The notes beneath the pieces were generated by a model. It saw only the letters and a list, made by a program, of their open reading frames with translations, searched no databases and had not been told where the DNA came from. Shown here in pieces: positions 25,577 through 31,500 of a DNA stretch of 64,000 nt (its first letter is position 1; every line of letters starts with the position of its first letter). The stretch is from Liolophura sinensis. Its lineage: Eukaryota > Mollusca > Polyplacophora > Chitonida > Chitonidae. A program made the translations under genes and the position numbers. The stretch lies in assembly GCF_032854445.1 (NCBI RefSeq), contig NC_088299.1, forward strand, positions 6,361,001 to 6,425,000, read 5' to 3'.

Positions 25577-28500
25577 GTATGTACACATTTCTTACTCGAT
25601 TTTTAACAATGGTGATCAGGTTTTAAGCAGATTCTATGATTTAACAATCTTAATTTTACAAACTTACAAATTAGCTAAATTGGCTAAAAAGGCAAAGCTA
25701 AATTACACCTTGAACGTATTCTAATCATAACTAGAACTGTATTCAGCTTCACGTCTTCCAAGCAGTCTTTATGCGTGTTTTTAAACCGACGCTTCAGTGC
25801 AGAGAACTTCTCGACGGTATGTAGGCCTAACAGTCGTTGAGCAATACAGCTCTGCTGGTGTATTACGATACACAGTGCGCTTTGGGATTATAGCATAAAT
25901 CTTTATACTCTGGAAAGTGGAGAAATGGCAATTTTTTTAGTTTAGGTCTCATAGTTTTTCAGTCACAGACCATTAAGATTAGGTTTTGTTTATATCTCAA
26001 GGAGTGATATGGACAAAAAAAAGGAACGCAGATCTGGACTCACAGGCCCAAATACAAAGATTACATAAAAGTTATATCTAAGTTGAAAACTAGTTGTCAT
26101 GACATATACACACCCAGTGGCAAACGTTCACAGTTTTTACCTTCAGTGAATGATTTTCTCACACTTTATGTGACTGGTATTGCTCCACCTGGATATCAAC
26201 TTGTGGAAGGACCTGTATCCATGGGTTATTGGTAAGATGTTTAAACGGTTTGGACAAAATCCCAGTTGGCCACCAAACCACAGGACCTAGAAAAACAAAC
26301 TTCAAACTTCCATGAGAATTTTGACGTCAAATTTCAAACATCTGGGGTTTGCAGTTTTCTGGAAAAAATATGAGAAGCACGTGCAGCAAAGGATAATATT
26401 TAGTGGAAGAACAATAGACGCCCAGCTTTCTGCTAAGAAGCCTAACAAAAGTTATATAATAATGATCATGGTTTCGTATCTCATTACTTCTCATGATTTC
26501 AGGCTATGTAATGTTATTATTATCACACATATATATAAAAAATGCATTCCATCACAAGATCGGTTGCCGTATTCGAATTTTGGAAGTCACAGTATCACGA
26601 TTGAAGAACATCTGGCTCACATGTTTTTATATATTAACAAGTTTAAGTTATATGTGTCATCTGGTGACAGGTACGCACTGGACCTGGGAAATAGCGAACA
26701 TGCTATTGTCAAACGGAACGGAGGTGTCTAAGCGAGAAAAGGAAGAGTCTATGATAGAAGTACAGCCGACAGAAAAGATTAACAACCTACCGTCTGTGCG
26801 CATACTCAACACGCATGTCACACCGGATATCTTCCCAAAGGAGCTCGTGACCAAGAAGGCGAAGATTATCTATGTCACGAGGAACCCTAAGGATATATTT
26901 GTGTCCTATTATTACCATGTGAAGAAAATAAAATTTTACAACTATGGCGGAGACTGGGACAGTTTCTTTGAGCACATTATGACAGGTTTAGGTAAGTGTA
27001 TTGTGTGAGGAAGTCTGTCATTTACTAACCAAAGGCCAGTGCTGTAATTTGACGAGGCCAAATGTTAATCTCTAGCAAGGGCCCAAGAATATAAAACATC
27101 GCTTTTCAAATTTTGAGTTAAGTCGGAAATGCCTTTGTGGACTCGGCCCCAGATAATTGATGCGATCAGAATGAATGTACAATAGAGCGCTATTTTAACT
27201 CTTGGAAGTCTGAGAACGATGGTTGAGACCGTTTTTGCTATATTAACATCGCCTCCTGCCTCATCACTTGACCCCAATGACCTTGGCCTGGTTCAAAAGC
27301 TCTGTGCACAATTTGCTATTGGTGGCAGTGTTATAAAGCAAGCGTTAGGATTATGACCAACACGAAGCTAACAATATGCAAAAGGCCCATTGTTGCAAAA
27401 ATGAGCAAATGGAGATAATGTAACAAATTGACATCATGAAAACATAGGGCGGTTTCAAGTTCATGATCTCAGGTGTGCTGTGATATTGTTTTGCTTTGGT
27501 TTATAGAAAATTACAATAGAAATGTCGCAGACAGAGAAAACAGAATAAATGTTTGTGTTCAATTTGTACTTTACATTTTCCCTTTGTTTAGCACCATATA
27601 TATTTTTCCATACGATTGCCTCCCATATGTTTCAAGCTATATCTTGTTTGTTAGGAGATGATTTTATCTACTGGTTGGCCTTTACCCCGGATGTTTCAGA
27701 ATATACCTCGTTTGTTGAGAGTTGATTATGATAACTGGTTAACTGTTACCCCGAGTGTTTCAGACTATGTTTTATCTGTTCACAATTGATTATGGTTAAT
27801 AATTCACGGATATTCCGGATATTTCAGACTGTATAGCTTGTTTGTTGGTTATGTTGGTTATGGTGACTGGTTCACCTATACTCTGGATGTTTCAGATTAT
27901 ACCTTGTTTCTTGTCAGTTGGTTATGGTGATTGGTTCACCTCTCCTCTGGATGTTCGGACTATAGCTTGTTTCTTGTCACTTGGTTATGGTGATTGGTTC
28001 ACCTCTCCACTGGATGTTTCAGACTGTAACCTGTTTGTTGACAGTTGACTATGGTGACCGGTTTACCATCAAGCCTACCATGGATGTTTCAGTCCGTACT
28101 TTGTTTATTATAGTTGATTACTATGACTGGTTGACCTTTACCCTGGATGTTTCAGGTTATCCCTTCTTTGTTGACAGTTGATTACTGTGACTGGTTGATC
28201 TTTACTCGGGATATTTCAGGCTATACCTTGTTTGTTGATAGTTGATAATGGTGACTGGTTGCACATTACCCTGGATGTTTCAGGCTAGACCTTGTTTGTT
28301 TATAGTTTATTACTATGATTGGTTGACCTTTACCCTGGATGTTTCGGGCTATACCTTGTTTGTTGAAAGTTGGTAATAGTGACTGATTGAACTTTACCCT
28401 GGATATTTCAGGCTATACTTTGTTTGTTTATAGTTGATTACTATGATTGGTTGACCATTAGCCTTGATGTTTCAGGGTATACCTTGTTTGTTGACGGTTG

Positions 28501-31500
28501 ATAATGGTGACTGGTTGCCCATTACCCTGGATGTTTCAGGCTATACCTTGGTTGTTGATAGTTGATTACTGTGACTGGTTGAACTTTATCCTGTATATTT
28601 CAGGCTATACCTTGTTTGTTGACAAATGATTATGGTGATTCCTTGACCTTTACCCTGGGCGTTTCTGGCTATACCTTGTTTGTTGATAGTTGATTTTGGG
28701 GACTGGTTCACCTTTACAAAACAATGGGAAACCTTCTTCCAAGAACATCAGGATATCCCTCTCTTGAGGCTCAACTATGAACAACTCAAACAGGTAAGAC
28801 TGTAAACCAGAACAATGTTTCATTGGAATAATCTTTCCATGATCACGGGATATAGTCATTTAAACAATAAAGTTGTTTTAAGCAGAGTCTCAAAGGAAAC
28901 GACCACATGAAGTGAGTATCGAAGGAAAGACCATTGGTCAGCCTGAAAATACCTTTACTTGTATTTTTCGATTTTTTCATTGAGTTAAATTCAGTCAGAT
29001 GCTGCATGTACATGGGCCATTATATTGATTTGTATGCTTCAAATTTTAGGGCGGAATAAAATTCTGTTGAACTGTGTTTATGTAGTGTGCACCTGTTTAA
29101 GGAAAAGTTAATATGATATTAAATACCTGCTTTTATGTCAGAGAAACTTGGGAGCGGCGTCATTGGTGACATGACATTACTGATATTGTCTGCAAAGCCC
29201 TCCTTGTACTTTCACAGCATTTGACCAGATTGAATTCAGTAAAGAAAATTGAAAAATGAACAAGTAGAGGTATACATTCAGATACATTCTCCAGTGGTCT
29301 TTCTGCGCGTGTTTAAATCGTTACTACATTTTCCTTTTCTTTAAATTTTACTTGGGAAATCCCTTTTGATAGTTGATATAGTGGTACATATACTCAGTAC
29401 TGGTTTATAGGTTCTTATTCTTACCAAAACTACCGGCCTTGATAGCACAGTTGGTAGAGCTTCCGCTTCAGGACCGGTAGATCCAGGATCAATCCTTGAT
29501 CGAGTCACACCTAAGACTTTAAAAGAGGAAGTTGTAACTTCCTCGCTTGGCGTTCGGCATGAAGGGGATAGTGCAACGGCTGGTTGACCCGTATCAGTAT
29601 AATGGCTCGGGCGGGACGTCTTGCTTGCCTTCGGTAAGTCGTCTCAGTGATGCAGCACTAAATAAAAGAGCGGTGGAAATCCGTCCTGCAACAAGGGGGC
29701 ACATTACACGTACATGCACCCTAATGATTCCTTCGTCGTCATATGACTGGAAAATTGTTGAGTACGACGTTAAACCCCAAGCACTCACTCACTCACCAAA
29801 ACTAAAAGCACTCTTCTTTATTGCATCATTATTTATTAAATTTGTTGTATCGACAGACTCGAATTGGACAAGCGGAATGAACATAATTTGAACTTCGCAC
29901 GAATTTGTTTCTTAAGACGCGATTTCTTGAATTCTATTATTATAGCATGAAATAGCGCATGTCCTGGTTTCATTCGATTAGTTGATTTCGGCTGGTCGAC
30001 TCGACAGTCGCGATGTGTGAACAGGGCTTAACTTTGTTTGAACAGACAACACAAGAATACCCATGCAGCCTGTTACTTACTTGGTCTGTTGTTCTTTCTC
30101 ATTGATCCACTTAGTTGATCTGATGTTTTTTTCTTTTTGTTCATGCGTTCATTTGGTTAATCTGATGTTCTTTATCATTTAGGCATGCTTCCACTGTGTT
30201 GGTCAAATGCTCTTTCTCATTTACTCATTCGTTCAGTTGGTTGGTCTGAGGTTCTTTCTCTTTTATTCACGCGTTTACATGTTTCGTCTGACGTTCTTTC
30301 TATTTTGTTCACGCGTTTATTTCGTTGGTCTGATGTTCTTTCTCATTTATCCATTCGTTTACTTGATTTGTCTGATGCTCTTCCTCTTTTATTAATGCCT
30401 TTACTTGTTTAATCTGATGCTCTTTCTCATTTATTCAGGCATGGGTTCACTTGTTTGGTTTAACGTTGTTTTATTTGAACTTTAAAAGCTGCTTTCTAAC
30501 CTTAAAAGCCGCATTCTAACCTTAAAAGCAGCGTTCTAACCTGAAAAGCTGCATTCTAACCTTAAAAGCCGCATTCTAACCTTAAAAGCTGCATTCTAGC
30601 CTTAAAAGCCGTATTCTAACCTTAAAAGCTGCATTTAACAATCACAACTTCATGGGTATATTCGTCCATTCTTTAAAAAGCTCAAAGTACAGAAAAAAAT
30701 GGAAAAAGCACACCAAAAAGAAAAAGAGCAGTGCTAAATATAATCGGAGCTACATTTCCAACCATGGCCCCTGATACATGACGTAGTTGAAGGTGTATCT
30801 TCCTCGCTTGGCGCTCAGCATAAAGGGGATAGTGCAACGACTAGTTGAACTGTATCAGTGTAATGGCTGTGGTGGGGCAGTTTACTTGTCTTCGGTCAGC
30901 CGTCTCATTGAAACAGCACTAGATAAAAGAGCGGCGAAAATCTGTCCTGCAACAAGGAGGCACATTCCATGTACCCTAAGAACTCCTTCGTCGTCATATG
31001 AGTGAAAAATTGTTAAGTACCACGTTAAACCTCAAGCACTCACTCATTCCGGTTTTCAACGATTATCTCCCTTGGCTTCAAAGGACATGGGGACAGGCGT
31101 GGACAAAATCGCCAAGTTTCTGGGAGTTTCGTGCAATGAAACTACTCGTGAAAACATCGTACAGAAGTGTGACTTCGCCAACATGAAACAACAGAAAGGC
31201 GTAATGTCTGAGCACATGAAAGGAATGATAGAGGGAGACGAACATCCAATGTACAGGAAAGGTGAGGGGTGGCCATCTTTAATACACTCTCTGGTAATCG
31301 GAAATGTCCTTCTATGGCATCTATGTTTGTCTTTCATCGAGGCAATTCCACGCAATCGTTGGTTCGAATCCATCCACCGCCAAATAATGAGAATTTTGTC
31401 GCTACATGCATAAAGTGTACATAGTCATCGATGTATTGAAACTGAGGCAAAGATCTAACAGTGAGACACGTCCTTATGTCTCTTTGCTTTCATTATTATT

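Follow-up and report, generated by a model that had tools for sequence, protein, structure and literature searches.

Minisatellites that span exon-intron boundaries are a known class, described in lancelets under the name mirages. In the lancelet globin genes, they lie on the acceptor side in BflGb6, where the repeat combines an intron's 3' end with the beginning of the exon that follows, and at the exon 2 boundary in BflGb9; their units measure 150 to 160 bp, number 6 or 3, and keep the splice-site AG or GT in many but not all copies, and the unit at the cluster boundary escapes homogenization (PMC3087553). The boundary-spanning mirages of lancelet Adh3 have units of 10 to 72 bp, show somatic length instability, and reportedly give no aberrant mRNAs (Canestro et al. 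2002, via PMC3087553 and PMC3902484), and the splice-site repeats of lancelet PGBD5 are a 3 x 108 bp triplication (PMC3902484). Related forms in humans include boundary minisatellites in segmentally duplicated genes, averaging a 30-bp unit in 4 copies, which comparisons of near-identical paralogues have linked to new introns as well as alternative transcripts (PMC2812944), and the variable number tandem repeat (VNTR) in intron 18 of ABCA7 (PMC5954066). Here, we describe a 64-bp array in intron 2 of a SULT gene, gene B, of the chiton Liolophura sinensis, within a window of 64,000 nucleotides (NC_088299.1, positions 6,361,001 to 6,425,000; coordinates below count from the first base of this stretch). 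The array is a mirage and, as far as our literature search reaches, the first noted in a mollusc. No mollusc mirage was found in that search, whose coverage leaves subscription papers outside; a cone-snail paper reports introns with short simple repeats (PMC3862624), and an abalone paper reports a 27-bp intron minisatellite, not described as containing a splice site (PMC6905558). The chiton genome paper first used the name Liolophura japonica (PMC11068029), which was later corrected to L. sinensis (PMC12441733).

The five coding exons of gene B join into an open frame of 297 amino acids, and the Sulfotransfer_1 profile (PF00685) covers residues 48 to 289 of the protein (profile positions 1 to 254 of 255, E value of 2e-60), which places it in the SULT family. 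The exons of gene B and the array are laid out as follows, with the basis of each assignment in parentheses.

25399..25576, forward strand: exon 1, coding part (tblastn, open joined frame)
26671..26991, forward strand: exon 2, with donor GTAAGTG directly 3' (splice sites, open joined frame)
27627..28717, forward strand: 64-bp tandem array in intron 2, 17 units, made up of 16 decoys and the terminal unit (Tandem Repeats Finder [TRF], unit alignment)
28604..28687, forward strand: AG-free stretch upstream of the true acceptor (AG positions 28602 and 28688, 86 nt apart)
28657..28717, forward strand: unit 17, containing the real intron end, the true acceptor (AG 28688-28689) and the first 28 nt of exon 3 (unit alignment)
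28690..28793, forward strand: exon 3, with donor GTAAGA (tblastn, splice sites, open joined frame)
31084..31261, forward strand: exon 4 (splice sites, open joined frame)
32226..32338, forward strand: exon 5, coding part with terminal TAG (open joined frame)

TRF recovers the array as a tandem minisatellite with a period of 64 bp, 16.9 copies, 76% matches, and a score of 972, and a wrap-around alignment resolves 17 head-to-tail units, the last of which extends 28 nt inside exon 3. The original prediction, made from the sequence alone, had counted about 16 such units ending in exon 3; the array and its ending in the exon stand, and the count becomes 16 decoys plus the real unit. Each unit consists of ∼36 nt of intron end followed by 28 nt of exon, so that the repeat itself spans the boundary. 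Exon 3 shares 25 of its first 28 nt with the decoy consensus, and unit 17 as a whole has 89% similarity to the array consensus. Twelve of the 16 decoys retain the acceptor AG; the unit also has a further AG (TTTCAG), which 13 of 16 decoys retain and the real unit has lost (TTTCTG). Every unit had also been read as carrying codons equivalent to VDYGDWFTFT. The YGDW core of this reading is present in the consensus, but the consensus codons are VDYGDWL, and strict YGDWF occurs in only 3 of the 16 decoys (W in 12, Y in 12, F in 5).

Conservation within the decoys is even. Mean column conservation is 0.833 in the exon-like half and 0.867 in the intron-like half; codon positions 1, 2, and 3 of the exon-like half stand at 0.826, 0.838, and 0.833; and the AG columns, at 0.81 to 0.94, are conserved about like the remaining columns. 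With flat codon positions, an exon-like half no better kept than the intron-like half, and ordinary AG columns, the decoys look like sequence under drift. Units 8 to 17 follow a two-unit (128-bp) period, with identity of 0.836 at lag 2 versus 0.792 at lag 1. Unit 17 has a similarity of 0.77 to neighboring unit 16, against up to 0.92 for inner pairs; other low pairs lie at the 5' end of the array. Searching the full genome sequence (one haploid assembly of 632 contigs and 609,464,459 bases) at the DNA level with positions 28590 to 28793 gave at least 9 matches, all within the gene B array, and no second copy of the array locus was found among the matches of this lower-bound search.

The gene B array thus shares with the lancelet globin mirages its minisatellite-like boundary copies, many but not all of which keep the AG, and with BflGb6 its acceptor-side geometry (PMC3087553). 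It differs from them in unit length and copy number (64 bp and 17 units) and in phylum, a mollusc rather than a chordate, and it is known from the sequence of one assembly, whereas the globin mirages are backed by reverse transcription-PCR and two haplotypes. It is a boundary-spanning minisatellite like the Adh3 mirages, for which somatic length instability was shown, and has 17 units, in another gene and phylum, against the 3 of PGBD5. With the human boundary minisatellites (PMC2812944) it shares a position at exon-intron boundaries of paralogues, but gene B has gained no new intron. The ABCA7 VNTR likewise adjoins the splice site of an exon, and use of its decoys leads to a premature stop, as it would in gene B; unlike the gene B array, it is on the donor side, has a 25-bp unit beginning at the GT, and is strongly length-polymorphic, with a measured effect on splicing (PMC5954066). 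Intron gain by tandem duplication was considered for gene B and rejected: there is no new intron inside an old exon, and in gene A, another SULT gene of the window, and most readable paralogues exon 3 opens at the same codon, beside an AG (the exceptions are L018, where the acceptor was not found, and L021, which is doubtful).

To establish polarity, we compared a consensus built from the 16 decoys only, which avoids circularity, with the exon 3 starts of 15 further SULT genes (excluding the doubtful L021, as well as L015 and L018, whose exon 3 start was unusable). The exon-like half of the decoy consensus has a mean identity of 55% to these paralogous exon starts, against a background of 26±8% over all 28-nt windows of the SULT loci, gene B included. 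In 3 of the 15 paralogues (L009, L011, and L017), the exon 3 start is the single best of ∼6,400 windows; the matches are weak in L019 (11/28) and L024 (12/28). The intron-like half agrees with paralogous intron ends only slightly above background (9 to 17 of 33, background of 8.5±2.6), as expected if it derived from gene B's own intron. At the third codon, 13 of 16 other readable SULT genes and 12 of 16 decoys have Y; the gene B exon has F. A match to paralogous exon 3 starts carried by the decoys alone, together with the shared Y, argues that the exon came first, and the comparison supports derivation of the array from the exon edge, as the original prediction held. Confinement of the exon match to the last copy, the observation that it had named as speaking against this polarity, was looked for and not found.

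The intron also presents many decoy acceptors ahead of the true one, most of them still with AG, as had been predicted. From this, the original prediction had further raised possible variable splicing and possible differences in copy number between individuals. We scored acceptors with a model trained on 61 SULT acceptors, excluding those of gene B exon 3 and L021 exon 3. The true gene B exon 3 acceptor scores 6.1 bits and ranks 13th among the 72 AGs of the intron; for known SULT acceptors, leave-one-out scores have a median of 8.4 and a tenth percentile of 4.8. Splicing to any of the 34 AGs within the array would lead to a premature stop before the end of exon 3 (34/34). The 86-nt gap just upstream of the true acceptor is the longest AG spacing within 27560 to 28690 and would favor the true acceptor under a first-AG-after-branch rule.

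We consider it very probable that the gene B array is an acceptor-side mirage, in which a duplication of the exon edge was amplified in the intron, the decoys are drifting, and the last acceptor is normally used. The first copy would have arisen by tandem duplication across the intron 2/exon 3 boundary, and this would have been tolerated because both splice sites of the original exon were left in place and the additional copy landed in the intron. Slippage or unequal exchange may then have amplified the unit, with 128-bp dimers contributing in the 3' half of the array. The decoys would drift while coding constraint holds the terminal unit, and the exon-proximal acceptor would normally be chosen, perhaps aided by exon definition through the GTAAGA donor and by the 86-nt AG-free stretch. 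Most likely, judging from the sequence, the decoys are duplication products that splicing mostly ignores; stray use of one would yield a stopped mRNA, so that the array could at worst lower SULT output and would supply no new protein forms. The presence of the same architecture, with varied copy number and divergence, at further exon edges of the chiton genome (see below) counts in favor of this account.

Several observations weigh against it. Twelve intron AGs score above the true acceptor, and 10 of these are inside the array, which makes some genuine use of decoys conceivable. The 86-nt gap depends on two AG losses whose permutation P value is 0.057, and they were noticed post hoc. In human ABCA7, retention of one unit from the donor-side array occurs in ∼2% of transcripts (PMC5954066), and boundary minisatellites in human duplicated genes are reported to produce alternative splicing patterns (PMC2812944). 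Given the premature stops at all array AGs and the 12 higher-scoring AGs, some unproductive splicing at the array is plausible.

A stronger version of this point holds that decoys are used at a meaningful rate, producing mRNAs targeted by nonsense-mediated decay, so that copy number tunes SULT B output. In favor of such a bank of poison acceptors are the higher-scoring AGs and the premature stops at all array AGs, and in ABCA7, array length affects exon skipping and so changes splicing (PMC5954066). We nevertheless regard this as unlikely: the decoy AG columns show no extra conservation and thus no sign of selection keeping them, and the lancelet mirages are reported as harmless to splicing (PMC3087553, PMC3902484). 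There is also the combined proposition that boundary minisatellites are recurrent outside chordates, with a chiton series running from two identical to ∼18 to 19 copies at acceptors and donors, and that the gene B array is a length-variable poison acceptor bank lowering productive SULT mRNA as copies rise; taken whole, we find it improbable.

We assign very little probability to the reverse order, in which a preexisting array took over the beginning of exon 3. Such an order would account for an exon that is continuous with the array and a terminal unit so like the consensus, but the exon-like half also matches the exon 3 of paralogues whose corresponding edge lacks such an array. An assembly artefact is just as improbable. 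Tandem arrays are often misassembled, but this one measures 1.1 kb and its units are divergent. The PacBio HiFi reads of the published assembly average 8,347 bp (PMC11068029). That the decoys serve as alternative in-frame exon starts giving different protein forms deserves virtually no credence: 14 of 16 decoys are stop-free over the first 9 exon-like codons, but none of the 34 array AGs is open through exon 3, in contradiction to this idea by the reading frames of the assembly, there is no codon-position constraint, and the unit length of 64 is indivisible by 3. We reject a coding or selective role for the decoys, given the 34 stops and the flat codon-position conservation.

Arrays of the same architecture occur at further exon edges of the chiton genome. 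Our survey of SULT edges covered 19 loci with 113 edges in 124,699 bases, 13.5% of which are tandem repeats (63 arrays). Edges without an identifiable splice site, the gene B exon 1 start, all exon 5 ends, and edges judged uncertain (the exon 3 donor of L020, the exon 2 donor of L018, the exon 4 acceptors of L014 and L015, and the exon 4 donor of L017) were dropped, and the doubtful L021 exon 3 acceptor was counted. At least 2 of the 19 loci look broken, L018 with a stop in exon 3 and gene A with a frame break in exon 2. The edge-spanning arrays are the following; the last two come from donor-motif arrays on contig C1 and are supported by Pfam.

Gene B exon 3 acceptor: 64-bp unit (SULT edge survey)
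L013 exon 3 donor: 40-bp unit, 9.1 copies (SULT edge survey)
L019 exon 2 donor: 35-bp unit, 18.4 copies (SULT edge survey)
L019 exon 4 donor: 34-bp unit, at least 5.7 copies, reaching the end of the examined stretch (SULT edge survey)
L022 exon 3 donor, 3107-3156: 26-bp unit, 1.9 copies, 100% matches (SULT edge survey)
L031, Branch-family exon, donor side: 46-bp unit
L036, GH31 exon, donor side: 39-bp unit (19.4 copies in L073)

Decoy donors in these arrays are largely intact, with GT kept in 7 of 8 decoys of L013, 8 of 8 in the GH31 stretch L036, and 15 of 17 in the L019 exon 2 array, where 8 of 17 score above the 8.2 bits of the first donor. L019 (G000:C7:4160200-4166700, minus strand as gene) holds two donor-side arrays in one SULT gene, and a run of variant units at the 5' end of its exon 2 array reappears at the 3' end. 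The 26-bp duplication of L022 (G000:C7:7308700-7315200, minus strand as gene) is absent from the close paralogue L020 and is perhaps a boundary array at birth; exon 3 of L020 ends in AAGCAG/GCAAGG (the slash marking the exon end), possibly a GC donor. In L073 (G000:C1:26353200-26354800), a GH31 intron of ∼900 nt consists mostly of the 39-bp donor-derived array (positions 210 to 966, 81% matches), and GH31-like segments lie past the array at 1154 to 1348 and 1375 to 1527. These loci extend the mirage phenomenon of lancelets to a mollusc, with several stages within one genome. Each mirage gene is a natural contest among many similar splice sites, whether settled by the exon-proximal site, branch-to-AG scanning, or site strength, and mirages offer one specific way for some intronic minisatellites to begin.

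Boundary arrays recur only sporadically in the chiton genome, with no clear exon-edge preference. Five arrays in four SULT genes span one of the 113 edges, versus 1.98 expected under a simple seed model with a random founding unit, and the nine GH31 paralogues L064 to L072 have no edge-spanning array in 90 edges, taken as unrefined ends of tblastn matches (the total of 96 includes six of the already positive L073); strong enrichment at exon edges is therefore unsupported. A 10-bp x 2 repeat flagged in L068 stops 14 nt short of the exon match and was rejected. A genome-wide test for three spaced AGGTAAGT donor motifs gave 613 match windows versus 423 for the reversed pattern, and a second motif gave 1045 versus 696, but match windows overlap, so we claim no donor-motif enrichment. 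Among the matches listed, we inspected 20 donor-motif arrays, all on contig C1, and 18 controls from contigs C1 and C2. The 5' edge was reached for 17 of the 20 donor-motif arrays, with an open frame of at least 30 codons at 13 of the 17 (16 frames in total) and a Pfam match above the cut-off at 2 (L031 and L036). All 18 control edges were reached, with 11 frames in 9 arrays and no Pfam match above the cut-off. Matches below the cut-off occurred in controls L055 (E value of 8.8e-4), L060, and L049 and on the donor side in L044 and L040. The gap between 2/17 and 0/18 is too small to count as enrichment. Donor-side loci L032 and L043 look exon-like by eye and have no Pfam match.

Other repeats and SULT remnants lie in the same window. 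Intron 3 of gene B has a 42-bp array at 30109 to 30437, away from exon edges. Gene A exon 2 (18323 to 18660) shifts frame near 18450 to 18460, a possible sign that the gene is broken or that the assembly has an error at this point. The orphan SULT exon, which had been thought to share YGxWF with gene A, does not, as it reads CGSWF.

8140-8036, minus strand: orphan/relic SULT exon 3, reading CGSWF (tblastn)

A relic SULT exon 4 (7153-8140 region, minus strand) breaks off near 7153, adjoining a 6.6-kb satellite of 108 61-bp units at 536 to 7125. Arrays of 61-, 63-, and 64-bp period are all present in the window, and the 63-bp array at 46979 to 47984 (16.0 copies, 96% matches) is far less diverged than that of gene B.

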